Below, one piece after another: positions 12,463 through 29,199 of a stretch of DNA of 64,000 nucleotides; position 1 is the stretch's first letter; each line of letters starts with the position of its first letter. The DNA comes from Nitrospirales bacterium (GTDB taxonomy: Bacteria > Nitrospirota > Nitrospiria > Nitrospirales > UBA8639), in contig JAJDBP010000003.1 in the NCBI GenBank assembly GCA_029261295.1, forward strand, positions 1 to 64,000. Reading direction: 5' to 3'. The position numbers and the translations under genes are program-made. The notes beneath the pieces were generated by a model, which ran no database searches, was not told the origin of the DNA, and saw only the letters and a list, made by a program, of their open reading frames with translations.

Positions 12463-13764
12463 ATGAATTCCTCTATTGCTTGCGATGTGTTAGTGCTTGG
12501 GGGTGGGCCTGCGGGTTCTTCCATTGCAGCAGTCTTGGCAGAAAAGGGTTGGAAGGTCAACCTGTGGGAAAAAACCCCTCATCCGCGCTTTCACATTGGT
12601 GAGTCATTACTCCCTCACACGGTGCCGTATTTGAAACAGCTTGGTGTCTTTGAAGAGGTCGAACGTATCGGGTTGAAAAAATTTGGAGCGGAAGTGATGT
12701 CTCCATATCATGATGAGCCGGTGACGTTGTATTTTGACGAGGCGTTGAATAAAGCCTATCCCTATGCCTTTCAAGTGCGCCGCGCGGAGTTTGATAACAT
12801 TCTTTTGCAGAATTGCCAAAAAAAAGGCGTACAAGTTCGAGAAGGGTTGGAGGCCAAAGACGTGAGCTTCTCTAACCCAGGTCAGGCCATGATTCATGGG
12901 GTGACTGCCCAGGGTGAACCGATGAGACAGCAGACTCGATATGTCGTGGATGCGACCGGACGGCAGACGTTTCTGGCTAATCAATTACGCGTAAAACACC
13001 GAAACCCCAATCACAATAGTGCGGGCATCTTCGGCCACTTTAAGGGGGTTGCCAGACATTCAGGAAAAGATGAAGGCAATATTAGCCTCTGCTGGTTTGA
13101 CCATGGATGGTTTTGGATCATTCCCTTTCATGATGGCGTGACCAGTGTTGGAATGGTGTGTTGGCCCTCATATCTGAAATCTCGCATAGGTACTCTCGAA
13201 GAATTTTTCTGGCAAACCGTCCGTAGTTGTTCGCCAATGGTTGACCGTATGAAGGATGCGGAGGCGATCATCCCTATAGTGGCAACCGGGAATTATTCAT
13301 ATCAATCCAAGGTCATGATAGGGTCCCAATTCATGATGGTGGGTGATGCCTTTGCCTTTATCGATCCCGTCTTTTCGAGTGGGGTCCATTTGGCTTTACA
13401 TAGTGGAATTCGAGGTGCTGAGGTCGTGGATGCCTGTTTACATGGTCATGAGCAGGCTGAGCAAAAGGCTAGGCAATTTGAAAGGTCGGTTCGGCAAGGA
13501 TTGAAGACCTATTCCTGGTTTATCTATCGGTTTACCCAACCAGCCTTTCGCAATCTATTCATGTCTCCCAAAAATACCTTTCGAATCCAGGAGGGTGTGA
13601 TGTCGATTTTAGCGGGGGATTTGTTTGGCAATACACCAACACAACGTCCTATTCTTCTCTTTAAGTTTTTCTATTTTCTCTTTTCTATGCTTGACCTAAA
13701 AGCCAACCTCGTCCAATATCGAAAAAGAAAGCATGCCGTAGAAGAGAAGTCTGTGGTGTCGTAA
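12463..13764 (+). CDS. FAD-dependent halogenase-like oxidoreductase
   Basis: A 433-residue flavoprotein. The N-terminal FAD-binding motif GGGPAG is at residues 13-18. The FHIGESLLP segment follows at about 43-51, then lysines at 72-73 (GLKKFGAE) where flavin halogenases place the catalytic Lys. The halogenase signature WxWxIP is present as WFWIIP. The late GDAFAFIDPVFSSG motif closes the FAD site. This set matches PltA/CmlS-type halogenases better than plain monooxygenases, although some geranylgeranyl-reductase relatives are similar. It is transcribed together with the chorismatase gene 46 bases downstream. The expected role is halogenation of the aryl head group or chain of the polyene. Bromination, as in xanthomonadins, is possible but not shown. 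Confidence 0.75.
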   Translation: MNSSIACDVLVLGGGPAGSSIAAVLAEKGWKVNLWEKTPHPRFHIGESLLPHTVPYLKQLGVFEEVERIGLKKFGAEVMSPYHDEPVTLYFDEALNKAYPYAFQVRRAEFDNILLQNCQKKGVQVREGLEAKDVSFSNPGQAMIHGVTAQGEPMRQQTRYVVDATGRQTFLANQLRVKHRNPNHNSAGIFGHFKGVARHSGKDEGNISLCWFDHGWFWIIPFHDGVTSVGMVCWPSYLKSRIGTLEEFFWQTVRSCSPMVDRMKDAEAIIPIVATGNYSYQSKVMIGSQFMMVGDAFAFIDPVFSSGVHLALHSGIRGAEVVDACLHGHEQAEQKARQFERSVRQGLKTYSWFIYRFTQPAFRNLFMSPKNTFRIQEGVMSILAGDLFGNTPTQRPILLFKFFYFLFSMLDLKANLVQYRKRKHAVEEKSVVS

Positions 13765-13810
13765 GCATTAAGGAAATGGCCCCCCACAAATTGGTTGTTG
13801 GCGAAGAGTT

Positions 13811-14920
13811 ATGGATAGTCAGTTTTCACAAAAAAAAATCGAGGCAGGTTTTGCTATTGGTGTATCTTCAAATGGGGATCAACCGCCAGCCTTGTCCCTA
13901 TCGCTAAGTCCCGATGCGATAATGGTCAGGTATGTTCCTGTGTCCAGTTCTTCACAAGTATTCGATTTTGAAGCCCCTCATATCCTCGCAGTCATCAACC
14001 ATGGGGGGAGGCATTCTGAATCAGTAAATGAGAACGGGCTGAATATTGATGTCAATCTTCCACAAGTGTTCAGACCGGGAGTGCTCGAAGTCTGGAGTAG
14101 TGCAGCTCCAGTATTGTGTGAGCAGGTCCACGGCATAAAATCTGCCTTTACGGATGAGACGGTCTTTGGCTGCTTAGAGGTTCAAGAATCATCTGAAACG
14201 GCTCTGGAGGATATGGCTCGTTTGGCGTACGAGCAAATCTTTGAGTATTGTGCCCAGTCTGGATTTCCCCACCTTTTACGTATGTGGAACTATTTCCCAC
14301 ACATAAATAGAGATCAAAGTGGGCTAGAACGATATAAACGATTTTGTATGGGAAGGCATCAAGCGTTCTCGACGTATTACAAAGATTTTGCCTCCATGCT
14401 TCCTGCAGCCAGTGCTGTTGGAACTCAAGATGGCCCTTTCCAAGTACTGTTTTTGGCCGGCAAACAATCAGGAAAGCCTCTAGAGAATCCTCGACAAATT
14501 AGTGCCTATGAGTATCCCCCTATGTATGGGCCGGAAAGTCCTTCTTTTTCCCGAGCGACTTTTCATCGAACGGCTAACGGCGGTCAATTGTTTCTTGCGG
14601 GGACGGCAAGCATTGTGGGCCATGCCACTCAACACAAGGGGGATTTAGCCAAACAGACTTTGGAGACCTTGTCGAACATTGCTGCGGTCCTGCATCGAGT
14701 TCGTCATGAGGAGCTGGAATCCTGTGGCGGGCAATCGGCTGAAGGTCTTTTAAAAGTTTTTGTACGGAATCAAGAAGATATGGGAGAGGTCAAGAAAGTG
14801 TTAGAGGCCCATGACCTAGGAAGAGGCCCAATATTGTATCTGCAAGGGGAGATGTGTCGAAAAGAATTGTTGGTGGAAATCGAGGGAATATGGAATTTAG
14901 AATTCATTCCTTCTAGGTAA
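13811..14920 (+). CDS. FkbO/Hyg5/XanB2-type chorismatase
   Basis: A 369-residue enzyme expected to cut chorismate, releasing pyruvate and giving hydroxybenzoate or a related cyclohexadiene acid. Family landmarks are MWNYFPHIN near 158, ERYKRFCMGRHQAF near 175, ENPRQISAYEYP and YGPESPSFSRA in the middle, then AGTASIVGHATQHKGD. The end has CRKELLVEIEG with Cys349 and Glu356. As I recall, a Cys seven residues before the conserved Glu marks the benzoate-forming Hyg5 branch rather than the diol-forming FkbO branch, and that should be verified. In Xanthomonas the homologue XanB2 supplies the starter for xanthomonadin, so this gene ties the neighbouring type II synthase genes to an aryl polyene product. 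Confidence 0.88.
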   Translation: MDSQFSQKKIEAGFAIGVSSNGDQPPALSLSLSPDAIMVRYVPVSSSSQVFDFEAPHILAVINHGGRHSESVNENGLNIDVNLPQVFRPGVLEVWSSAAPVLCEQVHGIKSAFTDETVFGCLEVQESSETALEDMARLAYEQIFEYCAQSGFPHLLRMWNYFPHINRDQSGLERYKRFCMGRHQAFSTYYKDFASMLPAASAVGTQDGPFQVLFLAGKQSGKPLENPRQISAYEYPPMYGPESPSFSRATFHRTANGGQLFLAGTASIVGHATQHKGDLAKQTLETLSNIAAVLHRVRHEELESCGGQSAEGLLKVFVRNQEDMGEVKKVLEAHDLGRGPILYLQGEMCRKELLVEIEGIWNLEFIPSR

Positions 14921-15081
14921 TGACAATGCTAGCGTTTTTTCCCCTAATTATTTAACATATTGAATTACTGATTTGATTCCCATACTAAAGGTTTTATCCA
15001 GGGATGGGGAATGGAACAACCATGATGGGATGGATCCAATATCCATCCTGCAAATGAAATTACTATAAGGAGGGTTGTCCG

Positions 15082-15495
15082 ATGAAAAGCCGTTCATTGA
15101 ATCTATTAATCTTTTTAGTCGCCAGCATGGTATTGTTAGGGGGGTGTCGAACCGGACCCCCGGTCTTTAATGTCGAAAATGCGACTATTAACACCGTATC
15201 CGGTACAGAACCAAAATTAGAGGATGTTACTCGAGCTATTATAAGTGCAGCTGGAAATTCAAATCCTCCCTGGAATATGCAGGTCATTAAACCTGGGCAC
15301 ATTGTTGCCACGTTACATAATCGTACCCATATGGCTCAGGTAGATGTTGAATACACAACCAAGGGATACAAGATCACCCGAAAAGATTCGGCTGATCTAA
15401 ATTATGACCCGGAGAAAGGGACCATTCACTCGGGTTACAACAAATGGGTTCAACGTTTGGATAGTAACATTCGAATAAAATTGAATTTGCTGTAA
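15082..15495 (+). CDS. Small lipoprotein of unknown function
   Basis: A 137-residue protein with a classic lipoprotein signal: basic MKSRS start, hydrophobic core, and lipobox LGGC with the modified Cys near residue 22. The mature part is short and beta-rich (HIVATLHNRTHMAQVDVEY, YKITRKDS), ending in charged strands. It resembles small periplasmic lipoproteins found widely in Gram-negative bacteria, with no assigned function. A strong AAGGAGG site precedes the start. It lies at the end of the plus-strand arm of the biosynthetic cluster and is followed at once by a strong terminator. Whether it belongs to the pathway is uncertain. Confidence 0.75.
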   Translation: MKSRSLNLLIFLVASMVLLGGCRTGPPVFNVENATINTVSGTEPKLEDVTRAIISAAGNSNPPWNMQVIKPGHIVATLHNRTHMAQVDVEYTTKGYKITRKDSADLNYDPEKGTIHSGYNKWVQRLDSNIRIKLNLL

Positions 15496-15513
15496 ATTTT
15501 TTTCGCAAAAGTG

Positions 15514-15556
15514 AAAAAACCGTCTATGGGTATATAGCCCATGGGCGGTTTTTTTA
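15514..15556. terminator. Strong bidirectional terminator
   Basis: A 17-bp stem with two G-T wobbles and a 7-base loop, flanked by A6 on the left and T7 on the right, so it can stop transcription from both sides. It separates the converging lipoprotein and glycosyltransferase genes. The stop codon of the glycosyltransferase lies inside its right edge. Confidence 0.9.
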
Positions 15557-16351
15557 TTGGTGAGATGAATGGGATGAGGCAACCTTTTGAAGGTTGGATC
15601 TTTGTTGGGCAAGAGGCTGTCCAAATAGGGCATGATACAAATTTCGGAGTGCTAATCCTTTTGCCAATAGTTTCCCGGCAATCATGCGTGTAATACGGGC
15701 AATATCCACTACAGGCCGGAAATAACTGGGTCTGGGGGATTGGCGAGGGTCGGATTCAATGGGAACTGATAGACTCCAAAATCCCAGCTTTGCCCCTTCG
15801 ACCAAAATTTCACTTTCAAAGACAAAGCTTCTTTCACGGTTTGTGGGAATGTTGAGTTGGGTAATAAGGGACATAGGATAGACCCGGAATCCCGACTGAC
15901 TATCGGCAATGGGGTGCCCTGAAGCCCATGAAACCCAAAAGTCGGCAATACGATTGGCTAGGATACGGTGCCATGTGTGGCGCGTCCATGGTCTTCGGCG
16001 TGCCCCGATAGTGATACGAGAGGAAATCGATTCAGCTCGTGCAATCAGTCGGGGAATATCTGCAGGGGAATGTTGGCCATCACCATCTAACGTCACAACG
16101 GCAGTGATGCCGCATTGTTTCGCATATTGAAATCCCTTCCAGAGACTAGCCGCTTTGCCACAATTGGTGCTGTTGTGAAGGACTGTCACCGGCAGGTGTT
16201 GTAAGACTTCTGCTGTCTGGTCGGTTGAACCGTCATCGACAACGATCACTGGCTGAACGTGTTGAAGGGATTCCTGGGCGACCGCCAGAATTGTGGTCTC
16301 TTCATTGAAAGCTGGGATCACGACTGCATAAATTGGCTGTTGGTCATTCAT
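15554..16351 (-). CDS. Family 2 glycosyltransferase
   Basis: A 265-residue GT-A fold enzyme of the dolichyl-phosphate-mannose synthase-like GT2 group. Key motifs are VVIPAFNEE near the start, VVDDGSTD near residue 35, and the metal-binding TLDGDGQHSP near residue 87. No transmembrane helices are evident. It is the last gene of the long minus-strand operon and overlaps the ketoreductase gene by 4 bases (ATGA). GT2 enzymes are regular members of aryl-polyene clusters, where they are thought to help build the lipid or sugar anchor. That role is inferred here. Confidence 0.88.
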   Translation of the reverse strand: MNDQQPIYAVVIPAFNEETTILAVAQESLQHVQPVIVVDDGSTDQTAEVLQHLPVTVLHNSTNCGKAASLWKGFQYAKQCGITAVVTLDGDGQHSPADIPRLIARAESISSRITIGARRRPWTRHTWHRILANRIADFWVSWASGHPIADSQSGFRVYPMSLITQLNIPTNRERSFVFESEILVEGAKLGFWSLSVPIESDPRQSPRPSYFRPVVDIARITRMIAGKLLAKGLALRNLYHALFGQPLAQQRSNLQKVASSHSSHQ

Positions 16352-17070
16352 GAGGCCATGGCTCCGTTCACACCTATAATTTGCCCGGAGAGATAACTCG
16401 CTTTTTCTGAAGCCAAAAATCCCACCACGGAGGCGACTTCTTGAGGCTGCCCCACACGTTTCATGGGTACCATACTCTCAATTTGTTGTTCCGTAAATGC
16501 ATATTCGGTGGAAGGGGAATGGATCAGCCCTGGTGCCACAACATTCACCGTAATGCCCCGAGAGGCGACCTCTGTTGCGAGCGAGCGAGCTGCGCCATGA
16601 AGCCCGGATTTTGCCGCAGAATAATTGGTTTGGCCTCGGTGGCCAATCATTCCTGAGAGAGAAGAAATGGCGACGATTCGTCCCCAGCGTGTTCGGATCA
16701 TAGGAAGTAATAACGGTTGGGACACATGAAAAAATCCGTGAAGCGAGACATCAATTACATCATGCCATTGTTGAGCCGTCATTCCGGCCATAGGTGCATC
16801 GTGAAAGATGCCTGCATTATGGACAATTATCTGAATAGGGCCGTTTTCCAGGAGTTGGTTCATGATGAGTTCCGTCCTCTCACGATCTGAAAGGTCGCAA
16901 TAAATGGATTCGGCTGATCCTCCTGTTTGGATCAATTGCCTTGTAACTTCATCGCATTTTTCCTGGTGGCTGTGTCCATGAACGATAACGTGAAGACCCA
17001 TCGAAGCCAACTCTTGGCTAATAGCGGTGCCGATTGGACTATTACCGCCTGTGACAAGGGCTCGTTTCAT
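16348..17070 (-). CDS. 3-oxoacyl-ACP reductase (FabG-like SDR)
   Basis: A 240-residue short-chain dehydrogenase. The NADPH-binding TGGNSPIG is at residues 7-14, NAG at 85-87, and the catalytic set is Ser137, Tyr150 and Lys154 in the pattern SSLSG and YSAAK. The C-terminal half keeps the FabG GITVNVVAPGLI signature. It overlaps genes on both sides by 4 bases. In this operon it would reduce the beta-keto group after each condensation during polyene chain growth. Confidence 0.92.
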   Translation of the reverse strand: MKRALVTGGNSPIGTAISQELASMGLHVIVHGHSHQEKCDEVTRQLIQTGGSAESIYCDLSDRERTELIMNQLLENGPIQIIVHNAGIFHDAPMAGMTAQQWHDVIDVSLHGFFHVSQPLLLPMIRTRWGRIVAISSLSGMIGHRGQTNYSAAKSGLHGAARSLATEVASRGITVNVVAPGLIHSPSTEYAFTEQQIESMVPMKRVGQPQEVASVVGFLASEKASYLSGQIIGVNGAMAS

Positions 17071-17516
17071 AGGTTGGTCTCGGTCCCTTGAATAAAAATC
17101 GAGGCCCGTCCCTGGAGAAGGATGTTTTCGAGTACCTTTATGGAAAAGGTATAGATGAAACTCATGGGTTGCTCGAGTATTAATTTTGCTTCAATAATGA
17201 GATCTTCAGGGATTTGTTGAAATGTTGAGCAGTATACCTGAATGTCCCGAATGGCTCCAAGATAACCGATGGAGGCGTTATGTTCGGAAATGTTTTGGGT
17301 CAGCCCGACGTGGACCCCCATGGTTTGGGCTGCGTATTCCAACCCTGAGAGCATTTCCAAAGTTCCGTGCCGTCGTAAGGGGTTGTCTTGGTCTCGGTGG
17401 GTTGAAGTAAAACAGACGATTGATATTTCATCCCAATCTTCAACAGAAGATAGCAGGCACATATTATGGCCATGTGGGAGGAATTTAGCCAGTTCGAGTT
17501 TGGTTAGGGCAGGCAT
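17067..17516 (-). CDS. ApeP-like hotdog dehydratase
   Basis: A 149-residue single hotdog domain. The N-terminus has LPHGHNMCLL with the probable catalytic His15 or His17, and the HGTLEMLSGLEYAAQ helix carries the acidic partner, as in the FabA/ApeP-type aryl-polyene dehydratases. It overlaps the ketosynthase-like partner gene by 13 bases and the reductase by 4. It should remove water from the 3-hydroxyacyl-ACP. Together with the second dehydratase near 26.9 kb this fits the paired dehydratases of aryl-polyene synthases. A thioesterase-like hotdog is a less likely alternative. Confidence 0.8.
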   Translation of the reverse strand: MPALTKLELAKFLPHGHNMCLLSSVEDWDEISIVCFTSTHRDQDNPLRRHGTLEMLSGLEYAAQTMGVHVGLTQNISEHNASIGYLGAIRDIQVYCSTFQQIPEDLIIEAKLILEQPMSFIYTFSIKVLENILLQGRASIFIQGTETNL

Positions 17517-18313
17517 GGCTGGTGATCAATGCGAAGTTGAAGATTATCTAAAAAATCCACATAGACAGAATCAGCCAGCTTTAGGGTCATATTTCGTAAG
17601 AGTGGAAGACTTCGTGCTGCAGGATTGCCCAACCGTAATCGTTCTAATGAGGAGTGCGCCATCGTCGTGGGTACGTGGTTCGAGGGTGTTGGCAGGAGGG
17701 TGATATTTAACATAGACACGCTATTCGGTAAAGACCGTTTGCTCAGCACAAAAGCCACAGCGAATGGAGCAAGAAGTGGTCGGGTGTCATGCAACGGAAA
17801 GGGAGCAGGTGTATCATACGTGACGAACAGGACACTTTCTTCCTGGTCCGCAGACAGCAATGTGACCGCTTCCAGCAATCCTCCCCCAAATGATGAATCA
17901 TAACACGCCAGGCTTGTGGACGAACGTTGCGACCCAGAGGCAATGCTCCAATACCCGGCGGCCGCATTATGAACGGATTGATGAAATAAGGTTGGGGAAA
18001 CAAGAGGGGTGGGAGATTCTAATGACTGGCAAATCTTGTGGAGGATGCCGACTTCCCCTCCCGATGAGGCAAACACAGTAGCCATTGTTTTTGGATCAAG
18101 CTGACTATGTTGCACAGCTTCCTGGGCGACTTGTAGTGACCATCGAACGACATCGCTACTCCGGCGACATTCATTTGCGGGTAGGATCGAGGGCATGGGG
18201 TCTGGCATCACGGAGTCATCATAGGGTTTCTGTTCTTTAAACAGCAGTTGGCACGATTCCCAATTTGTAATCCCTGGTCCAAGTACCCCCACGCTATGAA
18301 CAACCATCTTCAT
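17504..18313 (-). CDS. Chain-length-factor-like ketosynthase partner
   Basis: A 269-residue protein covering only the N-terminal half of a ketosynthase fold (Ketoacyl-synt_2 type). Recognisable segments are FASSGGEVGILHKI near 81, the SPTLFHQSVHNAAAGYWSI helix near 106-124, and SLACYDSSFGGG near 135. Cys137 sits where the nucleophile is expected, but the C-terminal half with the two catalytic histidines is missing. It should therefore be an inactive or modified partner of the full ketosynthase upstream, setting chain length. The 4-base overlap with that gene supports a stoichiometric complex. Confidence 0.82.
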   Translation of the reverse strand: MKMVVHSVGVLGPGITNWESCQLLFKEQKPYDDSVMPDPMPSILPANECRRSSDVVRWSLQVAQEAVQHSQLDPKTMATVFASSGGEVGILHKICQSLESPTPLVSPTLFHQSVHNAAAGYWSIASGSQRSSTSLACYDSSFGGGLLEAVTLLSADQEESVLFVTYDTPAPFPLHDTRPLLAPFAVAFVLSKRSLPNSVSMLNITLLPTPSNHVPTTMAHSSLERLRLGNPAARSLPLLRNMTLKLADSVYVDFLDNLQLRIDHQPCLP

Positions 18314-19509
18314 CTGCGTTTTCCTAATATTAAGGTGCAGTTGTTTCCACCAAATCCGAAAAAATTGCTCATGATGTGTTGGATCGGCCGTTCCTGATTG
18401 TGGACCAGGATTTGACTAGAGAAGGTGGGATCGACCGTGCTGGTATTTAGACAGCCCGGTAGAAAACCATGTTCTAGGCAGAGATCTCCCAATACGACGG
18501 CAACGGCGCCCGCCGCGCCAAGTGTATGCCCCGTCCAGCCTTTCGTAGAACTGCAAGGGGTTGAATTCTGGAACATGGTGGCAATGGCGCGGTCTTCGGT
18601 TTGATCATTCGCTACGGTCGCGGTTCCATGCATGTGAATATAGTCGATATCGGATGGGGAAAGAGCGCTACGATCTAGTGATGCCTGCATGGATAGGAGG
18701 GCACCTTGGCCGGTAGGATGAGGGTGAGACATATGGTAGGCATCGGCACTTTCCCCATAGCCCAACAATACGGTGTTTGGCTCTTTTTTGTTGATGTTAC
18801 TTTTTTCTAAAAACACAAAGGCTGCTGCTTCTCCAATCGTTAAACCGTCCCGATTAGCATCACAGGGACGACAGGGTCCTTGGGCAGTTAATTGCAAGGC
18901 TGAAAATCCGTATAAGGTGGTGAGGCAGAGACTATCCACTCCACCAACAACAACAGCTTCGCAAAGTCCTGATTCGATATACCGTGAAGCTGTTGCAAAG
19001 ACTTTGGCGCTCGAGGAACAGGCAGTAGAAATGACTACGGCTGGGCCAGTGAGCCCAAGATATTTTCGAACAAAATGTGCGACGGAAAAGGTATCTTGGG
19101 TATACTCACCTCTTGGGATAAAGGTGGCTGGGAGCTTTTTGGTGACGGGGTCTTTTTTTTGATAGGCATGCTCCGTTTCCAGGATTCCTGATGTGCTTGT
19201 TCCAATGAGTACTCCGATCCTATGGGCACCGTACCGTCGGCGAGCCGCGGCTATCTGGTCGTCAAAGCCATCTTGTTGAAGGCCTAATAACGCTAATTGG
19301 TTGTTTCGGCATGTGAAATGGCTAAGGCTGGATTTCAGTGAAACCTCCTCAACTCCTTCTACTTTTCCCATGTAAGTTGGAAGTTTTCTCCCTTCGAAGT
19401 CACACGGCTGCAGCCCGGATTGTCGTTCCCGTAGCGCGGAAAAATGAGCGTGTCTCCCACGCCCAATTGAGGAGACTATTGTGGCATGTCCGAAGTAAAG
19501 AGGAGTCAT
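18310..19509 (-). CDS. Beta-ketoacyl-ACP synthase II-like (aryl-polyene KS)
   Basis: A 399-residue ketosynthase with an intact triad: Cys164 in STACSSSAK, His294 in HMHGTAT and His328 in GHTLGAAG. The glycine-rich end FFGFGGNN is also kept. It lies 9 bases after the second halogenase gene and overlaps its partner by 4 bases. Expected to extend the hydroxybenzoyl starter with malonyl-ACP units. Housekeeping FabF is an alternative on sequence alone, but the operon context and the adjacent half-ketosynthase argue for the pathway-specific enzyme. Confidence 0.92.
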   Translation of the reverse strand: MTPLYFGHATIVSSIGRGRHAHFSALRERQSGLQPCDFEGRKLPTYMGKVEGVEEVSLKSSLSHFTCRNNQLALLGLQQDGFDDQIAAARRRYGAHRIGVLIGTSTSGILETEHAYQKKDPVTKKLPATFIPRGEYTQDTFSVAHFVRKYLGLTGPAVVISTACSSSAKVFATASRYIESGLCEAVVVGGVDSLCLTTLYGFSALQLTAQGPCRPCDANRDGLTIGEAAAFVFLEKSNINKKEPNTVLLGYGESADAYHMSHPHPTGQGALLSMQASLDRSALSPSDIDYIHMHGTATVANDQTEDRAIATMFQNSTPCSSTKGWTGHTLGAAGAVAVVLGDLCLEHGFLPGCLNTSTVDPTFSSQILVHNQERPIQHIMSNFFGFGGNNCTLILGKRR

Positions 19510-19518
19510 GCGGAATGA

Positions 19519-21084
19519 TTATGCTGAGGACTTGAGTGTCAGAAAGTGTGAAAGAGGAAGGGGATGGAGGGTTTCAGTGACGCCAAGGAGTTGGTTGGCT
19601 TGTTCCTGGCAGCGATTAAATATCTCATGAAGTCGGGAAAAAAATTGACGGGGAGTTTGCGGTTGCCCAACTTCTTCCAACCATTCGATTCCTTCTACAG
19701 CATTGGTAAATTGTCCAAGGTTTCCTTGAAAGTACGTTTTGGTGTGATGAAGGTGCTGTTCAACTTTTTGAAAAAGTTGGGAGAAATTCGAAAGGGCATT
19801 GAGCACGGTATCCTGTTCCTGAATTTTCTCAGTGAGAAACTCCTGGTTGAGATGTAAATCTTGCATAAACTCTGAAAGCCAGATGTGATAATACGATGGG
19901 AAATCTAATTGCCATTTCAATTTGAGGAGTTCATAGCTACCAAAGAGGGAATAAAGGTTACGATACAGACGCATACTGGCTTCAAAACGAAAGTCCATGT
20001 ACGCGTTTGATTGATCAACCAGATCATGCAATTTCTTTTTCGAAATTCCTTCTTCTTCATAGCGAATTATATTTGTCAGAAAATCGTTTTCCAAGGCAAT
20101 AAAATCAGACCCGGGGCTATAAAATGGATCAGAAAATGCGGCTGCTTCGCCTGTGAGCCCCCATCGGTTGTGGCTAAAATATTGTCGGGTCCCATAGGTC
20201 AAATTTTGAAAACTGCCAATGTCCAGGAGGGTGGCCTCTTGGAGGAGTGACCAGGCTGCACTGTGCTGTTTTAGAAAGCTCAAAAACCCTTCTTGTTTGC
20301 ACAGACGATCCTGCCATCCGGCTGTTCGTTCCATCACGATTCCCACGCTGACGATTTCCTGACTAATTGGAATAAACCAAATCCAATATCCTGGATAACA
20401 AAAATGGGTGGTTGAGGTGTGTCGGCTGGTGCCGTTTACCCGCTGTCGGAATGTCTCCGGACCGACTTCGTCTAAGTTGATTACATTTTTGAACCGTCCC
20501 CATACAGCGGCCATAGAATGGTGCGACTCGGGGATACGCAAATTCTCCTGCTTCGCCAAGACAGAGGATCGGCCACTGGCATCAATGAGCCATCGACACT
20601 GTCCATTCCATTTTTTGGCGTTGGTTTCCACTGAAAATTGATGGGGATTGGAAGTAGAACTCAATTGGATATCAAAGACCCGACTTCCCAGGTGAAGTTC
20701 CACGCCGTCTTCTTGGTTCATTTTGAGAAGATCAGTTTCTAGACGTGAACGATCCAGTTGAAACGCTTTGAAAAAGGGGTGTTCGGTTCCGCCGATTTCA
20801 CTCATCTCAATAAGGGGAGCTTGCCGGTTTTCCTGGTCAAAGAAAAACCGCAGGCCGTTTTTCACAATGTGATGATCCGTCAAATAGTTCTCAAGACCAA
20901 GCCGCCTTGTGAGGTAATTCCCGGTGATTTCAACCGTGGATTCTCCTACTTTAAATGATGTGGATTGACGTTTTTCAAACATCCCAACGGTAAGATGAGG
21001 GAAGGTCTGCCGGAGTTGTCGAGAAAGCAAGTTTCCGGCAAGGCCTGCACCAAGAATGGCGATATCAAGATGATGTCGGGGCAT
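19519..21084 (-). CDS. Tryptophan-halogenase-family flavoenzyme, copy 1
   Basis: A 521-residue protein of the tryptophan halogenase family. It has GAGLAG (FAD) at residues 12-17, VGESTVE near 46-52, Lys75 in IVKNGLRFFF at the place of the PrnA catalytic Lys, the WxWxIP signature as WIWFIP near 240, and a GEAAAFSDPFYSPG FAD-closing motif. The C-terminal 150 residues are helical and shared with copy 2. No good ribosome-binding site was seen at the chosen ATG, whose MPRH start matches the paralogue. It abuts the ketosynthase gene by 9 bases. A halogenation role on the polyene is inferred. A monooxygenase role is possible if the Lys is not catalytic. Confidence 0.8.
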   Translation of the reverse strand: MPRHHLDIAILGAGLAGNLLSRQLRQTFPHLTVGMFEKRQSTSFKVGESTVEITGNYLTRRLGLENYLTDHHIVKNGLRFFFDQENRQAPLIEMSEIGGTEHPFFKAFQLDRSRLETDLLKMNQEDGVELHLGSRVFDIQLSSTSNPHQFSVETNAKKWNGQCRWLIDASGRSSVLAKQENLRIPESHHSMAAVWGRFKNVINLDEVGPETFRQRVNGTSRHTSTTHFCYPGYWIWFIPISQEIVSVGIVMERTAGWQDRLCKQEGFLSFLKQHSAAWSLLQEATLLDIGSFQNLTYGTRQYFSHNRWGLTGEAAAFSDPFYSPGSDFIALENDFLTNIIRYEEEGISKKKLHDLVDQSNAYMDFRFEASMRLYRNLYSLFGSYELLKLKWQLDFPSYYHIWLSEFMQDLHLNQEFLTEKIQEQDTVLNALSNFSQLFQKVEQHLHHTKTYFQGNLGQFTNAVEGIEWLEEVGQPQTPRQFFSRLHEIFNRCQEQANQLLGVTETLHPLPLSHFLTLKSSA

Positions 21085-21309
21085 GAGTCAAGCCTTAACA
21101 GAAACCAATATTAAACAAGGAAATTACGATGGGAAGCAAAACCTTTCTTCCCCTTCTTATTTCAACAAGAATTTATTTGAGCATAATCAAGCTTCCGTTT
21201 GGAAGCAAGATGGTAAGAGCATGTCATTCATTTTCAGGGGAAGAAGCAAAGTAGCTTAAGAAAATCAAAATAAGGTAGATGGGTACTCGCCAAATCTTAT
21301 GATGTGAGG

Positions 21310-22860
21310 TTATCCAACAGGAGATGTCGTCTGGTCCCTCTCTCTGTCTGATGGGGTTTTGAGAAGATCGTTAGCTTGTTCGAAACTGCGACGGAATATT
21401 TCTCGGAGCCGGGTCACCGACTGCTGAGGAGTCAGAGGTTGTCCCACTTCTTTGATCCAGTCTATGCCTTCGAAGGCATCTGTGAAATTTCCAAGGTTTG
21501 CCCGATACAAGGACTGGGTTGCCTGAAGATGTCGTTCTACTCGTTTAAAAAGCTGCGAGAACGTCGAAAGGGAATTGAGAGCTTGCTGTTGTCCCTGAAC
21601 CTGATTAGCGAGGAATTCGTGGTTGAGATGAAGGTCCTGCATAAATTCCGAAAGCCAGATATGATAGTACAACGGTAGATCCCATTGGAATTTCAATTTG
21701 AATAACTCATAGCTGCTAAGTAGGGAATAGAGGTCACGATATAAATAGAGGCTAGCCTCATAACGAAAATGCATGTAGGCGTTGGAAAGATTGACGAGAC
21801 GGTGCAGTTGTTGAGGGGAGGTACCTTCGAGTTCATGGCGAATCAGATTTGTGAGGAAATCATTTTCCAAGGAAATAAAGTCTGACCCGGGACTGTAGAA
21901 CGGGTCAGTGAAGGCTGCGGCCTCACCGGTTAACCCCCATCGATGTTGACTGAAGAATTGTCTCGTTCCATAGGCCAGATGCTGAAAGCTGCCGATATCT
22001 AGCAGTTGGGCTTCTTGGAGGAGTGACCATGGTGCATGGTGTTGTTTGAGAAAAACCAAGAACCCATTGGGCTTCCTGAGCCCTTCCTGCCATCCGGCTG
22101 TTCGTTCCATGACCACTCCCACACTGACGACTTCCTGACTTATGGGGATGAACCAAATCCAATATCCGGGATAGCAAAAATGGGTGGTTGAAGTGTGCCG
22201 TCGGGTGCCGTTTACTCGTTGGCGAAATGTCTCCGGACCGACTTCGTCTAAGTTGATTACATTTTTGAAGCGTCCCCATACAGCGGCTACAGAGTGCCGT
22301 AATTCCGGAATTCGTAAATTTTCTTGTTTGGCGAGGATTGAGGATCGGCCACTGGCATCGATGAGCCATCTGCATTGGATTTGCCATTTTTTTGAGGGGG
22401 ATTCTGTGGAAAATTGATGAGGGGAGGAATCGTGGCTGAGCTGAATATCAAAGACCTGGGTTCCCAGGTAAAGTTCCACCCCGTCCTCTTGATTCATTCG
22501 TAGGAGGTCAGCTTCCAACCTAGAGCGATCAAGTTGATAACTCTTGTATAGAGGTGGAGTGATTCCCCCAATTTCACTCATTTCAATCAAAGGAGCTTGA
22601 CGATTTTCTTGGTCAAAGAAAAACCGAAGGCCATGTTTCAGGAAATGATGTTGGGCTAGATAATTTCCCAGACCAAGTCGTCTGATCAGGTAATTCCCTG
22701 TCACTTCCACAGTGGACTCTCCCACTTTAAATGAAGTGGAATTATTTTTTTCAAACATCCCGATCTTTAGGTGAGGGAAGGTTTGTCGGAGTTGCCTCGC
22801 TACTAGGTTGCCGGCAAGGCCAGCTCCAAGTATGGCAATATCAAGGTAATGCCGTGGCAT
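21310..22860 (-). CDS. Tryptophan-halogenase-family flavoenzyme, copy 2
   Basis: About 516 residues from the ATG at 22860, whose product starts MPRHYLD like copy 1. A TTG at 22866, directly after the upstream stop, has a better-spaced AAGAGG site and is an alternative start. GAGLAG, VGESTVE, Lys75 in FLKHGLRFFF, WIWFIP and GEAAAFTDPFYSPG are all kept. It follows the MMPL exporter gene without a gap. Both copies are intact, so redundancy is not decay. They may act on different positions or work as a pair (inference). Confidence 0.8.
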   Translation of the reverse strand: MPRHYLDIAILGAGLAGNLVARQLRQTFPHLKIGMFEKNNSTSFKVGESTVEVTGNYLIRRLGLGNYLAQHHFLKHGLRFFFDQENRQAPLIEMSEIGGITPPLYKSYQLDRSRLEADLLRMNQEDGVELYLGTQVFDIQLSHDSSPHQFSTESPSKKWQIQCRWLIDASGRSSILAKQENLRIPELRHSVAAVWGRFKNVINLDEVGPETFRQRVNGTRRHTSTTHFCYPGYWIWFIPISQEVVSVGVVMERTAGWQEGLRKPNGFLVFLKQHHAPWSLLQEAQLLDIGSFQHLAYGTRQFFSQHRWGLTGEAAAFTDPFYSPGSDFISLENDFLTNLIRHELEGTSPQQLHRLVNLSNAYMHFRYEASLYLYRDLYSLLSSYELFKLKFQWDLPLYYHIWLSEFMQDLHLNHEFLANQVQGQQQALNSLSTFSQLFKRVERHLQATQSLYRANLGNFTDAFEGIDWIKEVGQPLTPQQSVTRLREIFRRSFEQANDLLKTPSDRERDQTTSPVG

Positions 22861-22866
22861 AACCAA

Positions 22867-25203
22867 TTAGGTTGCCTCTTGAATTAGGGTTGGTGAACAC
22901 ATTGCGGCAAAGAGAAAACAACTGAGCGAGCCAAAGAATGCTGTTAAGCCAATACCTTGAAGAACCGGCGTCTGTGAGCAAGCTAACAATCCAAATACCG
23001 CAATAGTTGTAAGACTGCACACCATGATGGCTGAAATCGTTTGCTGACGTTCGACGACGGTGTTATGGGCCCGTTGAAAAAAAAGGGTGTAATCTAATCC
23101 AATACCAAACACCAACAATAAGGCAGCCAGGTGAAATAAGGACAGGCGTTCGCCAAGGGCATGAAGGATACTGAGGTCGAGCAGGATTGCCCCAGCAATG
23201 GGAAGTAAGACCGTGGCGACTCTGGTAAGGGAATGTAATCCAATGCCCAAAATTGTCATCAAACAACCAAGTCCAATCACTAAGTAGGTCATGACTTCTT
23301 GTCGGTAGGTGGTGACCATATGGTTTGATTCATATTTCAAATCCAGATAATGCACAGATGGAAGTGTCTCGGTACGTATAGCTTGCTGAATGGCCTTTCG
23401 ATTCTTCACATCACGTATGAGAATTGTTCCTACCCATTGATCGTTAAGAGGATACAGCAGTGACCGGATTTTTTTTTCTAAGGGAGTACCATGAATGGTT
23501 TCAATTTCCAATGGTGCCAGATTTTTTGTCGCGGTCATGCTTTGGACAAACGGATCAAATAGTCCAGGCTTAAATGGCAAATCCCGTTGGGCTTCTTTGA
23601 GATAGCTTCGTAGGGTGTTTTGATCGGGTAAGGCGTCCTGTCTTAATTGTTGTAATCGAATGCTGGGAAGATAATCGGCGGCCATTTCATATCCGGCCAT
23701 ATGTCCGTGATTGACTAGCTGCTCTAAGGTCAGTTTGAGGCCTTCACTCTGTTCTAAAACTTGTTGGGCATCTGGTGCCACCACCACGATCATGTCTCGC
23801 ACAGCTGGCGCACCGAGGTCTTTTCGTAACCAGGCATCCTGATCGCGCAGTTCTTTGGGAACCGGGCTGAGATTAGCGATATCCATCTCCCAAAATGGTT
23901 TTTCTGACCAGACCAAATACGATAAGGACATAATCATGATAATAGGCATAACCACAATGGCAGGTTTAGTTCCCACGAATTGAAGCGGGAGGTATGAGGC
24001 CCAGGAAATAGGCTTTGTCACTTTCCTAGGAACTAGGACAGGAAGGAGCCATCGTGTTGCTGCGGCTGCCGTTAAAAGGCCGACGATGGCAAATAGTCCC
24101 AATTGTGAGAGGCCAGGAAAGCTTGAAAATAACATAGCCCCATAGCCGATTGCTGTGGTGGTCGCGCCTAATCGAATGGTGGGCCAGACTCCCATGATGG
24201 TTTTTCTGGCCGAACGGCCAGCTTCCAGATGTGCACAGGCATGGAGGGGATAGTCAATTGCGACACCTATTAAGGTGGCACCAAATGCCAAAGTCATGCC
24301 ATGGATGAAACCAAATACCCAGAAGACGGTAATCCCGGCTACGAGCAGACCCGTGACGAGAGGCACAAGACTGAGGCAGAGAATCGTCAATGATCGGTAG
24401 GTGACCAAGAGCAGCGCAATGACGAATCCTGCGCCAAGCGTAGAAAGCCAGGTTGCGTCTTGCTTAATCACCTTTCGTGATTGGACGGCGAAAACCGACG
24501 GGCCGGAACGGATTAAGGTCAGGGATGATGAGGGTGAGACCTTGGTCTGAATTTCTTCCATTGTCGTGGTTAAAAATGTTTGGATGGCCTCTTGGGCATC
24601 GAGATCAAAGCCTCCTACGGCTGTCTCGGCGACAAGCAACGCCACCGGTCGATCTGCAGAAAACCAGACGCCATGAGCGATCTTGACTATATTGGCTGTT
24701 CTCCATTGGTTGAGTAGGCTTTGGAAGGCTCCCGTGGGATCTTCAGGGATTCGTTTTTTGAAAAACGAGGGGAGGGGATTCGCGATGTCTTGGAGTCGAT
24801 GTTGCAGGCTTTCACGTAAACTTTTAGTGGTGAATTGATCAGCAGACACCGTAGGGCTGAGAAGATATCGGTATTGATACAGAAGGTCATGATCGAGAGC
24901 AGGTTGAGTCTGTTCACCATTGTAGACGTGAAGAAATTTCCCATGGTTCCGCATGGCCCTTGCGAGTTTTTTGCTCGCTTTTTCCAGGATAGAAGGTTCT
25001 GCTCCTTGGATTCCAAGAAGGAGGATCCGTGAAGTAGGGCCCGACTGTAGTTGGTCCACGAATAATTGTTGTGAGAATGATCCCGAAGATGGAAGTAGGA
25101 GTGGCAATTCTGTCTGTATCGGGATAGAGGTGACCGCAAAGGCGGAACCGAGTGTGATACTCGCAAACCAAAGCAACCAGGGGGTGAAGGGAATCTTTCT
25201 CAC
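22867..25203 (-). CDS. MMPL/RND-type lipid exporter of the aryl-polyene cluster
   Basis: A 778-residue inner-membrane transporter. It has one N-terminal helix, a large periplasmic domain (about 35-240), a block of five to six helices to about 410, a second periplasmic loop, and a final helix block near 640-770. This is the usual MMPL arrangement. The helix segment with GVAIDYPLHACAH carries the acidic proton-relay type residues, mirrored by GIGLDYTLFFQ in the second half. It overlaps the LolA-like gene by 4 bases. Such transporters in aryl-polyene clusters are thought to move the lipid-linked pigment toward the outer membrane with the LolA-like carrier. Confidence 0.88.
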   Translation of the reverse strand: MRKIPFTPWLLWFASITLGSAFAVTSIPIQTELPLLLPSSGSFSQQLFVDQLQSGPTSRILLLGIQGAEPSILEKASKKLARAMRNHGKFLHVYNGEQTQPALDHDLLYQYRYLLSPTVSADQFTTKSLRESLQHRLQDIANPLPSFFKKRIPEDPTGAFQSLLNQWRTANIVKIAHGVWFSADRPVALLVAETAVGGFDLDAQEAIQTFLTTTMEEIQTKVSPSSSLTLIRSGPSVFAVQSRKVIKQDATWLSTLGAGFVIALLLVTYRSLTILCLSLVPLVTGLLVAGITVFWVFGFIHGMTLAFGATLIGVAIDYPLHACAHLEAGRSARKTIMGVWPTIRLGATTTAIGYGAMLFSSFPGLSQLGLFAIVGLLTAAAATRWLLPVLVPRKVTKPISWASYLPLQFVGTKPAIVVMPIIMIMSLSYLVWSEKPFWEMDIANLSPVPKELRDQDAWLRKDLGAPAVRDMIVVVAPDAQQVLEQSEGLKLTLEQLVNHGHMAGYEMAADYLPSIRLQQLRQDALPDQNTLRSYLKEAQRDLPFKPGLFDPFVQSMTATKNLAPLEIETIHGTPLEKKIRSLLYPLNDQWVGTILIRDVKNRKAIQQAIRTETLPSVHYLDLKYESNHMVTTYRQEVMTYLVIGLGCLMTILGIGLHSLTRVATVLLPIAGAILLDLSILHALGERLSLFHLAALLLVFGIGLDYTLFFQRAHNTVVERQQTISAIMVCSLTTIAVFGLLACSQTPVLQGIGLTAFFGSLSCFLFAAMCSPTLIQEAT

Positions 25204-25865
25204 GGCACCGGTAGGTCAAGTTGAAGTTCGGAGCGGTCGCCGTTCTTTTCCTCTATTGAAATAGTATGAAGGTGTGTACTGCTTCCGGCGAGACGAATGC
25301 ATTCCACGCCGTCTTCCTCCCCGTCTTCTTCATTTTGAATAATTGGAGCAAGATGTAATGTCCAAGCTGGCAGGGTGCCGGCTACCGAAATCTCAAAGAA
25401 TTTTTGTAGTGTGTGTTTGTTGTTGTTAAAGATAGCTCTCAAGCCTTCAATCAGAATGGCTAAAGCTGGATAGTCTTCAAGAGAAAAGGTCTGGGAAATT
25501 TCCCGTGCAGGATTTTCATAAAGCAGGCTGTTCCCATTGATGATAAAAGATTCTTCAGTAGGGATCCGCACATGTTTTTCCAAACGGTCCGGTGGGAAAA
25601 AGAGGAGTGTTCCTTCTTTATGTGAAGGGGTCATGAGCATGCCTGAATAGTAGGTTTCATGAAAGGTCTGCTCAAAGAGGGTTGACTGTTCCAGGCTTTT
25701 CAGCACTACGTCTAAGCTTACTGGGCTCTCATTATTCGGAGTAGGCTGTTCGGTGTTTCCCCAATTCTCGCAGGCATAGGAAAGTGCGAGCGACCCAGGT
25801 AGGAAAAGTGCACAGCAGGCAAGGCTCCAAACGAAAGTCTTACTTATCTGTTTCCCAAAAGTCAT
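25200..25865 (-). CDS. LolA-like periplasmic carrier
   Basis: A 221-residue exported protein. The signal peptide spans about residues 10-30 (WSLACCALFLPGSLALS). The mature part shows the LolA-like unclosed-barrel pattern: SLEQSTLFEQTFHETYYSG, GTLLFFPPDRLEKHV, and INGNSLLYENP. It overlaps the exporter by 4 bases and the acyltransferase by 26. The pair would ferry the lipophilic polyene across the periplasm. The fold call is confident, the cargo is inferred. Confidence 0.82.
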   Translation of the reverse strand: MTFGKQISKTFVWSLACCALFLPGSLALSYACENWGNTEQPTPNNESPVSLDVVLKSLEQSTLFEQTFHETYYSGMLMTPSHKEGTLLFFPPDRLEKHVRIPTEESFIINGNSLLYENPAREISQTFSLEDYPALAILIEGLRAIFNNNKHTLQKFFEISVAGTLPAWTLHLAPIIQNEEDGEEDGVECIRLAGSSTHLHTISIEEKNGDRSELQLDLPVP

Positions 25866-26736
25866 AAAAATTAAACCAATTATTGGGGGCCATTTGGCAA
25901 TAGGTTTCTAAGCGAAGGGCATAACGCTGTGTCCATTCCTGTAAGCCTTGGGCGCGATTATCTCTTGGGATCGTGATTGCTTCTGCAAATAATTCGAAAT
26001 AAATATCGTACTGTCCGTCCCCGCGATACAGACAAAAAAATAACACGACAGGCACTTTGAGGATACTGGCTAGTAACATTGGGCCCGAGGGGAATTGAGC
26101 CGAATGACCCAAAAAATTACAGAACACGACCTTTTCATCTTTAAGCGGGCGATCACCAAGCATGCCGACCAGTCCTCCAGCATCCAAACATTCTTTGGCT
26201 CGTAACATGGTATCGGGTTCGCCTACTGGAATAATACAATCCAACATGGTGGGGTCGAGTTTTCCGAGAACTTCATTGAGAATAGGTGCGTTCTCTTGGT
26301 GCATAAGCAACTTGATGGGAGCATTTCTGGTGGCTAAACCCGTGGCTCGAAGAATATCAAAACTCCCTAAGTGGGAACCGAGCAGAATACAGCCTTGTTT
26401 ACGATCGACTCGGTCAAGGAGTATATCTAAATCGCGGATGTTCAAATCGAATTCGTCTCGTCGGTTGGCCAAAATAAACGTTCTATCTAAAAGGGTTGAG
26501 GCGAAGGCATGATACTGGGAAAACAGATCTTTGAGGGTCACTCGACGCTGTAACACACGTCGTAAAAAGGCCTTAATACCTTTGCTGGCGTTCCAGGAAA
26601 ACAAGACATAATATGTGCAAATGGGATACAACAACGCCCGAGCGGTCTTTCGTCCTATGCGAAGGGCGACCCACAGCATGAATTGGTAGGCCCAACGATT
26701 CCCTCTTTCCCGCTGAGCGAGCCAACGTTTACTCAT
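25840..26736 (-). CDS. LpxL/HtrB-like lipid acyltransferase
   Basis: A 298-residue membrane-associated acyltransferase of the lipid A late acyltransferase family. The HX4D catalytic motif is HLGSFD near residue 121. GMLGDRPLKDEKVVFCNFLG near 190-210 is the expected second motif region. An N-terminal helix (LMWVALRIGRK region) anchors it. In aryl-polyene clusters such enzymes probably transfer the polyene acyl chain to a lipid or sugar acceptor. It sits in the operon between the dehydratase and the LolA-like gene. Confidence 0.86.
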   Translation of the reverse strand: MSKRWLAQRERGNRWAYQFMLWVALRIGRKTARALLYPICTYYVLFSWNASKGIKAFLRRVLQRRVTLKDLFSQYHAFASTLLDRTFILANRRDEFDLNIRDLDILLDRVDRKQGCILLGSHLGSFDILRATGLATRNAPIKLLMHQENAPILNEVLGKLDPTMLDCIIPVGEPDTMLRAKECLDAGGLVGMLGDRPLKDEKVVFCNFLGHSAQFPSGPMLLASILKVPVVLFFCLYRGDGQYDIYFELFAEAITIPRDNRAQGLQEWTQRYALRLETYCQMAPNNWFNFYDFWETDK

Positions 26737-27059
26737 GGTTCTGAGAGAGAGGTTTGATCAATTGCTTGAAAGATGAATTGACCAGACACAATTCGTCTGG
26801 TTCCGATCTGGCAGAAAAAGGTGATGACCTGCGCGGGAAGGAGATCGAAATGAAGCTGTACTAATTCGTTGGGACGAAGCGGAGAATGAAATTTTACCAC
26901 CGGGACGTTGGAAATTCTCAAGGGATGCCCGAGTGATTGGCAAATAGATTCAAGAATTTCCCCTAAAAGGACGACGCCGGGAACGATAGGGTTTCCGGGG
27001 AAATGTCCAGACAATGAGGGGTGAAATGGGTCAATGAGGAAGTTTTTTTCAATGGTCAT
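26733..27059 (-). CDS. FabZ-like 3-hydroxyacyl-ACP dehydratase
   Basis: A compact 108-residue hotdog protein. The FabZ/ApeI signature GHFPGNPIVPGVVLLGE holds catalytic His19 and Glu34. It is shorter than housekeeping FabZ (about 150 residues), like the ApeI subunit that pairs with an ApeP-type partner. Overlaps of 4 bases on both sides place it firmly in the operon. Expected to dehydrate 3-hydroxyacyl-ACP during polyene elongation. Confidence 0.86.
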   Translation of the reverse strand: MTIEKNFLIDPFHPSLSGHFPGNPIVPGVVLLGEILESICQSLGHPLRISNVPVVKFHSPLRPNELVQLHFDLLPAQVITFFCQIGTRRIVSGQFIFQAIDQTSLSEP

Positions 27060-28420
27060 TGAGGGTATGGTGGGTTCGGTGAACTGGTTACATTTGGTTG
27101 TGCTCGCATGAGGGTTTCGGCGTCCTTTTTGAGGAATTTACCAGTATGGGTTCGAGGAAGCGAATCAATTAGGTAAACGGGGCGTGGCAAAAACACCGGC
27201 GCAATTTTTGTTCGGAGTTCGGAAAGGATAGACTCAGATGTTTTTCCAGGCGCAACGACAAAAGCTACCAAGCGTGTGACCGATTCTTCATTTTCCTCTG
27301 GCATGAAAAATGTCCCATCCACGACTCCGTCAAGAGAGAGGATTTGCGCATTCAAGGCATCTAAGGATGCACGATGTCCACCAATATTTATAAGATGAGT
27401 GGGTCGCCCTTTCAAACTAAATTGCTGAGCTTTTTCGGATTGAATGGTATCAGGAATAGGGATGGGCTCAGGGTAATAGGGTCCGCTAACTGCAAAGTCG
27501 TCTGGGCTGGACTCGAGGGACAGACCGGACAACAAATTCCAATGATCTTCCTGAGTTGGTTGTCGGGTGGCGATGGTGCCGGCTTCTGCGAAACCATAAA
27601 TCTCGACCATCGTCGTATGAAGCAATTCTTCTACTTGTTGAGCGAGGTGTTTGCTAAGGGGAGCGGTGGCGGACAAAGTATAGGTCACTTCTGGAAACTG
27701 AGATTGAGCCATCACGCAGGCGCGGAGATGAATAGGCGTAGAAACTAAGATGCGGGGTGGGAGTGGCTCCAGCAATACAGACGCAATGTCTTCTGGGAAA
27801 AAGGGACGTTCTGAATGAATTGCCCACCCTTGTTGGAGTGGGAGCATTATAGAAGTTTCCAACCCATACATATGTTGGTGAGGAACGGTTGCCACAATGG
27901 TAGGCTGGCTACCTTGGGAAAGAGCGAGTCGTTCTCCTGTTTTTTTGGCAATTTGGACCATCGATCCCCAAGATTTCGGATTTGGGCGTGGGGTGCCAGT
28001 GGTTCCGGACGTAAATGCTATGGCCGCAACATGGGAATCTGAAAATTGGGGATTCTCTATTATTGATGTTGGATCAGGGCTCGAATCTAAATTGAGAATC
28101 AGGCTCTCCACTTCTTCGATTTGCTGTGGGGTATCAAGTAGGACATAACAATCGGGAAATTCCCGTGAGAGTTTTTGTACCATATCAGGTGATGGCGTGG
28201 GTGGCAGCAACGTTGTTTGGTTATGGCAAAGACTGGCAGCAAATCCCACTAAAAACGCATAGCGATTTTGACACATATTTACGACATAACGCTTGTGAGG
28301 TAATTGATCAAGAACGAAGTCTATATGCGATAAAACCGTGCGAGCAGACATGGGTTTACCGTGATGCCAAGCGACGGTGTTATGGGGTTGATAGGGACCG
28401 AGAAAGGGGGAGCACACCAT
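27056..28420 (-). CDS. AMP-dependent acyl ligase loading the aryl starter
   Basis: A 454-residue adenylate-forming enzyme. The ATP-binding core AFTSGTTGTPRPNPKSW is near residue 134, the adenine-contact region EIYGFAEAG near 267, and the catalytic Lys region RTHTGKFLKKD close to the C-terminus. It is shorter than typical acyl-CoA ligases (500-550), as expected for aryl-polyene AMP ligases. It should activate the hydroxybenzoate made by the chorismatase and transfer it to the adjacent ACP. The ribosome-binding site is weak, and a 141-bp gap separates it from the ACP gene. Confidence 0.86.
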   Translation of the reverse strand: MVCSPFLGPYQPHNTVAWHHGKPMSARTVLSHIDFVLDQLPHKRYVVNMCQNRYAFLVGFAASLCHNQTTLLPPTPSPDMVQKLSREFPDCYVLLDTPQQIEEVESLILNLDSSPDPTSIIENPQFSDSHVAAIAFTSGTTGTPRPNPKSWGSMVQIAKKTGERLALSQGSQPTIVATVPHQHMYGLETSIMLPLQQGWAIHSERPFFPEDIASVLLEPLPPRILVSTPIHLRACVMAQSQFPEVTYTLSATAPLSKHLAQQVEELLHTTMVEIYGFAEAGTIATRQPTQEDHWNLLSGLSLESSPDDFAVSGPYYPEPIPIPDTIQSEKAQQFSLKGRPTHLINIGGHRASLDALNAQILSLDGVVDGTFFMPEENEESVTRLVAFVVAPGKTSESILSELRTKIAPVFLPRPVYLIDSLPRTHTGKFLKKDAETLMRAQPNVTSSPNPPYPQ

Positions 28421-28561
28421 AGATTTGAGTGAATTTATGGGTTTTTTCAGGGTGGATCTTCTTGATAGAAAACGTGTCTCAATGTGATGGTTGCCTCAGG
28501 AAAAGGCAATGGTCTAGGGATTGACTTTTTTAGAATTGAGGAAAATTTGTACGCATGTTAG

Positions 28562-28846
28562 TTAAGTTGTTGTCCGGTTCTTCTGAACAGCTTCACAGAG
28601 AGAGCGGAGGGATGCGAATATTGTTGTATTATCTGGATCATCAGATCGTAATTTGTACCCGTAATGTTGATGAATCACCAATGCAATTTCTAGTGCATCA
28701 ATGGAGTCTAATCCTAACCCTTCCCCAAATAATGGGTCTAGGGGTGGAATTTCTCCAGGTTCTACCTTCAAGTTCAATGTGGTCACAAGAAGTTGAGCAA
28801 TTTCAGTTTCAAATGGTGACTGGTCAGACAACGAATGTTCCTCCAT
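28562..28846 (-). CDS. Acyl carrier protein of the aryl-polyene synthase
   Basis: A 94-residue acidic carrier protein with the phosphopantetheine site GLGLDSIDALE (Ser48). The length and the three-helix spacing are typical. It is the first gene of the minus-strand operon. A promoter-like pair lies about 37 bases upstream. The ribosome-binding site is poor. It would carry the aryl starter and the growing polyene chain. Confidence 0.9.
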   Translation of the reverse strand: MEEHSLSDQSPFETEIAQLLVTTLNLKVEPGEIPPLDPLFGEGLGLDSIDALEIALVIHQHYGYKLRSDDPDNTTIFASLRSLCEAVQKNRTTT

Positions 28847-29076: not shown

Positions 29077-29199
29077 GACCCTTAGACAGGCATGACTGTA
29101 TCCTGAGTTGTGCACCGTCAATCCCTCTACCCTTTTTTCTTTTTCCCACATTCGTCGAGCCTGCATGGCAAATACAAACCTCATTTCTTGGGCTGCTCG

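Follow-up and report, generated by a model that had tools for sequence, protein, structure and literature searches.

Sixteen genes lie at positions 12463-28846 of the window, by which we mean the whole stretch of 64,000 nucleotides that was analysed (Table 1). They are arranged in two convergent groups facing one another, with three genes on the plus strand (12463-15495) and a run of 13 on the minus strand that extends from the acyl carrier protein (ACP) gene (28846) to the GT2 glycosyltransferase gene (15554). A preliminary description of this range had named a chorismatase, an AMP ligase, an ACP, a ketosynthase (KS) with a partner resembling a chain-length factor (CLF), a ketoreductase (KR), two hotdog dehydratases, an LpxL-like acyltransferase, a GT2 glycosyltransferase, a LolA-like carrier and an MMPL exporter. 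Pfam, NCBIfam and profile searches found every one of these classes where it had been placed, but the list left out four genes of the same range, namely that of an ApeA-like lipoprotein (15082-15495) and the halogenase genes hal1, hal2 and hal3. The halogenases, missed at that time, are the most distinctive part of the cluster. Overlaps of four bases, described earlier for most minus-strand junctions, are indeed present but at exactly half of them (6 of 12: lig/DH2, DH2/AT, LolA/MMPL, KS/CLF, DH1/KR and KR/GT2). Promoter matches in the DNA equalled the shuffled background, and terminator matches were moderately above it. The start of hal3 was set at the ATG at 22860; the called open reading frame opens with a TTG at 22866.

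Table 1 Genes and spacer of the locus with the matches used to assign them
Feature	Position	Strand	Evidence
hal1, flavin-dependent halogenase adjoining chorismatase	12463..13764	+	Trp_halogenase PF04820 E 1e-24
Chorismatase, FkbO/Hyg5/XanB2 family	13811..14920	+	PF21168 E 1e-37; Hyg5 5ag3 E 3e-48
ApeA-like lipoprotein, lipobox LGGC	15082..15495	+	34% to E. coli ApeA over 118 aa; profile E 4e-32
GT2 glycosyltransferase (GT2), N-terminal part of ApeJ	15554..16351	-	PF00535; ApeJ E 1e-21
Ketoreductase (KR), ApeQ-like	16348..17070	-	FabG family above cut-off; ApeQ E 2e-60
Hotdog dehydratase (DH1), ApeP-like	17067..17516	-	Profile match PDB 6qsr_B E 3e-11; ApeP profile E 3e-11
Short chain-length factor (CLF), ApeC/ArcJ/ORF16-like	17504..18313	-	PF13723 E 1e-28; PDB 6qsp_B; ApeC E 1e-11
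Ketosynthase (KS), ApeO-like	18310..19509	-	NF006618 510 bits vs cut-off 407; ApeO 40%, E 8e-73
hal2, second-type flavin-dependent halogenase	19519..21084	-	PF04820 E 7e-9; WxWxIP, FxxPxxSxG; conserved Lys
Spacer hal2/hal3	21085..21309		Trace of exporter gene's 3' part, 32-35 bp at 77-84%
hal3, tandem paralogue of hal2	21310..22860	-	76% to hal2; PDB CmlS E 4e-17
MMPL exporter (MMPL), ApeM-like	22867..25203	-	PF03176 E 1e-13; ApeM E 1e-26
LolA-like periplasmic carrier (LolA), ApeL-like	25200..25865	-	PF19574 LolA_3 E 1e-10; ApeL profile E 8e-23
LpxL-like acyltransferase (AT), C-terminal part of ApeJ	25840..26736	-	PF03279; ApeJ residues 247-550 E 2e-48
Hotdog dehydratase (DH2), ApeI-like	26733..27059	-	ApeI E 8e-9, profile E 7e-15; FabA-like PF07977 below cut-off
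AMP-forming aryl-acid ligase (lig), ApeH-like	27056..28420	-	PF00501 E 9e-22; ApeH E 6e-25
Acyl carrier protein (ACP), ApeE-like	28562..28846	-	NF006617 116 bits vs cut-off 70; ApeE E 3e-16

Two plus-strand genes were observed beyond the ACP gene. The first, adjoining it, encodes a radical SAM protein (29110-30927), and a homologue (58-59%) stands at the opposite end of the cluster in Nitrospiraceae loci L034, L036 and L037; as it flanks those clusters too, it may be part of the pathway. The second (32202-32861) encodes a polysaccharide deacetylase that is 29-38% identical to genes that many proteobacterial clusters carry between exporter and KS, and arcN of Azoarcus has the same annotation.

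Relationship to characterised aryl-polyene pathways

The ape cluster of E. coli CFT073 (PMC8253772) served as yardstick, with Ape letters given by gene order and product names. Twelve of the 16 genes pair with 11 E. coli proteins (ApeA, C, E, H, I, J, L, M, O, P and Q), the GT2 glycosyltransferase and the acyltransferase corresponding to two parts of ApeJ. The locus therefore combines an ApeO-type KS and an ApeC-type chain-length factor with a KR, ApeP- and ApeI-type dehydratases, an ACP, an aryl ligase, ApeJ-type glycosyltransferase and acyltransferase functions and ApeM/ApeL export genes. The KS has a CSSS motif with Cys164 as well as His294 and His328, and the attachment serine of the ACP lies within DSI. 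The CLF and DH1 pair with the solved chains 6qsp_B and 6qsr_B, and the ApeP-like family PF22817 was found in 11 of 13 members of the DH1 family, the DH1 of the window falling below its cut-off. The ApeA-like lipoprotein (137 aa) is conserved at aryl-polyene loci of two phyla; its model (pLDDT 85) found no counterpart at E < 0.001 in a fold search.

A different type II pathway, fatty-acid-like or leading to another polyketide, could resemble an aryl-polyene cluster, and the KR and KS do match the FabG and FabF models as well. However, the KS scores above the PRK09185 (NCBIfam) cut-off and below that of FabF, and the ApeC-type CLF, ApeP- and ApeI-type dehydratases, ApeH ligase, ApeM, ApeL and ApeA occur together, so that such a pathway is highly improbable. 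A placement of KS, CLF and ligase with other type II pathways, which the preliminary description had named as refuting its reading, was not seen. Genomes of the same genus have these genes in identical order, and so do Nitrospiraceae loci, except that hal2/hal3 are missing there. Gene order is kept across genera and families, and this recurring synteny excludes a chance assembly of the cluster.

Counterparts of ApeR, ApeF, ApeK, ApeG, ApeN, ApeD and ApeB were not found in the cluster, nor were a second KS, a thioesterase, a second ACP or a linked methyltransferase, whereas a chorismatase for the starter unit and halogenases, in which it differs from E. coli, are present. The cluster therefore lies outside the E. 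coli/Xenorhabdus ape subtype, which is characterised by the priming ketosynthase ApeR and the thioesterase ApeK. A working cluster in Lysobacter has one KS, no thioesterase and no methyltransferase (PMC3691225), so ApeR and a thioesterase are not a general requirement for aryl polyenes. Measured against this cluster, the earlier statement that the locus is complete holds for the xanthomonadin type, but it does not hold for the ape type.

The genes that do set this type apart are a XanB2-type chorismatase, recognised by family and active-site residues, and a halogenase gene, here hal1. In an alignment of the chorismatase to Hyg5 and FkbO, Cys349 corresponds to Cys in Hyg5 and to Ala in FkbO, Glu356 aligns with the catalytic Glu334 of Hyg5, and the GTAS motif has the Gly of Hyg5 where FkbO has Ala. 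These Gly and Cys residues are among the listed Hyg5-type characteristics (PMC7170507) and therefore favour a hydroxybenzoate over the FkbO product. This argues for a chorismatase that is predicted to form 3-hydroxybenzoate and to supply the starter, although the products of chorismatases cannot be accurately predicted from alignment (PMC3949708). Together with the gene matches, these residues bear out the earlier reading of a xanthomonadin-type aryl polyene with a chorismatase-fed starter. In the stretches read of two other Nitrospirales loci (L131 and L132), the core is present but chorismatase and hal1 are missing, and starter supply may therefore vary within the order.

The arc genes of Azoarcus sp. 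BH72 (PMC3949708) match the locus in a halogenase adjoining the chorismatase (arcA-arcB), KS, short CLF, two dehydratases, KR, glycosyltransferase, acyltransferase, LolA, exporter, ligase and ACP. Unlike the two loci of Azoarcus, the window has a single locus with hal2/hal3 in addition and without a linked methyltransferase or second acyltransferase. The xanthomonadin cluster of Xanthomonas and the Lysobacter enzymogenes cluster (PMC3691225) share with it a chorismatase-type starter gene, KS and short CLF, KR, two dehydratases, a LolA-like carrier and an exporter, and in Xanthomonas also a halogenase, the likeness being one of gene content rather than of aligned sequence or compared gene order; again hal2/hal3 are extra in the window. 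Genes of these kinds are required for the pigment in Lysobacter (PMC3691225) and Azoarcus (PMC3949708). Judged from its genes, the locus belongs among the aryl-polyene clusters of xanthomonadin/arcuflavin type and holds the gene set for a yellow membrane pigment resembling xanthomonadin. Alternatively, genes elsewhere in the genome could make a dialkylresorcinol to which the polyene is esterified, giving a hybrid of the flexirubin/arcuflavin type, as Azoarcus has its two polyene loci and its dialkylresorcinol genes at separate genome sites (PMC3949708). Of those genes of the window that were scanned, none was identified as a dialkylresorcinol gene, and we consider a hybrid product unlikely.

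Two types of predicted halogenase

All three halogenase genes encode the features of predicted flavin-dependent halogenases, namely GxGxxG, WxWxIP, FxxPxxSxG and the conserved Lys, the last assigned by alignment only. The nearest PDB matches of hal1 are Mpy16, ChlB4 and PltA (E about 1e-57), which are carrier-protein-dependent pyrrole halogenases. Its WxWxIP and FxxPxxSxG motifs are kept in all 29 collected orthologues, and hal1 is the usual halogenase adjoining the chorismatase in such clusters.

Placed between KS and exporter (19519-22860), hal2 and hal3 group as a subfamily of their own in a tree with all subfamily copies. Over the aligned parts they share about 25% identity with hal1, and their nearest PDB match is CmlS. 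Among 296 genomes sampled from the phylum, a strong hal2/hal3-type match was confined to the window's genus. Such a gene was absent from the KS loci outside this genus (L030-L105) and from 37 whole genomes with related clusters (E up to 1e-30). Two genomes from another genus of the family have a single copy (55-56%). Nine KS-positive genomes of the family were inspected; each has at least one copy, and four (the window's, G005, G006 and G007) have two. Outside the family, none of the examined loci and genomes has the insertion, which is thus family-specific.

In L014, the stretch separating hal2 from hal3 codes for 81 aa left over from the C-terminal part of the MMPL exporter (E 1e-14), and the window's spacer holds a shorter trace. 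Such remnants are expected from a tandem duplication of the halogenase gene together with the end of its upstream neighbour and support the origin of the pair in this way. A plasmid search with hal3 retrieved distant homologues only. The best (36%) lies on a Janthinobacterium plasmid (L121, 11989-13587) beside a type I PKS gene and another near hpaB in Gloeothece, neither neighbourhood being that of an aryl-polyene cluster. When hal3 was modelled with AlphaFold together with seven close relatives, the result was too poor for use (pLDDT 32).

Whether hal2 and hal3 would halogenate can be weighed from several observations. Arcuflavin is not brominated although the arcA halogenase gene is in its cluster (PMC3949708), and the presence of hal genes therefore does not prove a halogenated product. 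Perhaps hal2 and hal3 belong to the same pathway as flavin monooxygenases, hydroxylating ring or chain for example, or are inactive. Their weak match to characterised halogenases (CmlS E 4e-17) and the hal2 copy of L026, which reads WIWFIA where other copies read WIWFIP, fit such a role as does the arcuflavin precedent. Both motifs are kept in both window copies, however, the Lys in all aligned copies, and at least one gene copy in every inspected KS-positive genome of the family, and we hold the absence of halogenation by these enzymes to be possible but somewhat improbable. Halogenation of the product is likely, though not certain, and the pigment of the window's family may be unusually halogenated by way of one or two extra halogenase genes. 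Only tentatively do we propose the fuller scenario, in which the family would have recruited a second halogenase subfamily into a xanthomonadin-type operon and duplicated it, for a lipid halogenated more heavily or differently than any characterised.

Host, distribution and predicted product

An nxrA-like open reading frame lies further along the same contig (93584-97021; phmmer E 0 against nitrite oxidoreductase subunit A, 7b04_B), followed at the contig end by the start of an nxrB-like gene (97090-97542, L119). A second nxrB-like open reading frame was seen at the start of contig C2. The window's nearest relatives are Nitrospirales. The nxrA-like gene and these relatives make a nitrite-oxidiser-type member of the Nitrospirales well supported as host, in line with the Nitrospirota origin suggested at the outset, and make contamination unlikely. 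Besides nxrA, flanks common to same-genus genomes led us to reject a contaminating contig.

The KS is present in 7 of 21 genomes of the window's genus and in 60 of 236 Nitrospirales genomes. Its distribution is patchy, G010 and G019, single-contig genomes of the same genus, being without it. A quickly computed KS tree unites 17 Nitrospirales sequences, that of the window among them, in a single group (SH-aLRT 94) that is separate from Proteobacteria. This grouping suggests old inheritance within the Nitrospirales with later losses, over recent import, and speaks against a recent transfer of the cluster from Proteobacteria. Two KS sequences of Nitrospira sp. RBC (L051 and L057) fall outside the main group near a betaproteobacterial KS and were possibly acquired separately. 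A contig of Nitrospinaceae (L080), a family of another phylum with nitrite oxidisers, was also seen to carry a cluster of this kind, including a chorismatase and a halogenase of the hal1 type.

Such a lipid had been thought notable for a nitrite-oxidiser-like lineage, an expectation that the KS counts above do not sustain. A 2022 report (PMC9765116) describes aryl-polyene clusters in four species, among them Nitrospira inopinata, N. lenta and N. japonica. These bacteria belong to the same taxonomic order as the window, and their clusters to the same product class by antiSMASH; the window lies in another family of that order and has the second halogenase type. An aryl-polyene match was also reported in a Nitrospiraceae MAG in 2026 (PMC13055281). 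Aryl-polyene clusters in Nitrospira were therefore already known, and what is new is the xanthomonadin-type assignment and a second subfamily of halogenases that is specific to the family.

Our direct results are the content and order of the genes, their homology, their key residues and their conservation, and from these we infer all chemistry and function. The chorismatase would convert chorismate to 3-hydroxybenzoate, possibly also 4-hydroxybenzoate, which the ligase would put onto the ACP. KS/CLF, KR and the two dehydratases would then build a conjugated polyene from repeated malonyl units, and the LpxL-like acyltransferase and the GT2 glycosyltransferase, jointly equivalent to ApeJ, would join it to a lipid anchor. 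The MMPL exporter, the LolA-like carrier and the ApeA-like lipoprotein would carry the product to the outer membrane. The aryl ring or the polyene would probably be halogenated by hal1, and in the window's family also by hal2/hal3, using FADH2, O2 and halide. The most likely product would be a membrane-anchored, probably halogenated hydroxyphenyl-polyene lipid. On this evidence, it is very probable that the product is an aryl-polyene lipid of xanthomonadin type and that the locus also directs it to the outer membrane.

This places a xanthomonadin-type pathway on an nxrA contig in a lineage central to nitrification, where the pigment would presumably serve, as it does in Xanthomonas and Lysobacter, as a shield against light and oxidants. 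If active, hal2 and hal3 would be new halogenases in polyene-lipid synthesis, and a halogenated pigment, if made, could mark the window's family.
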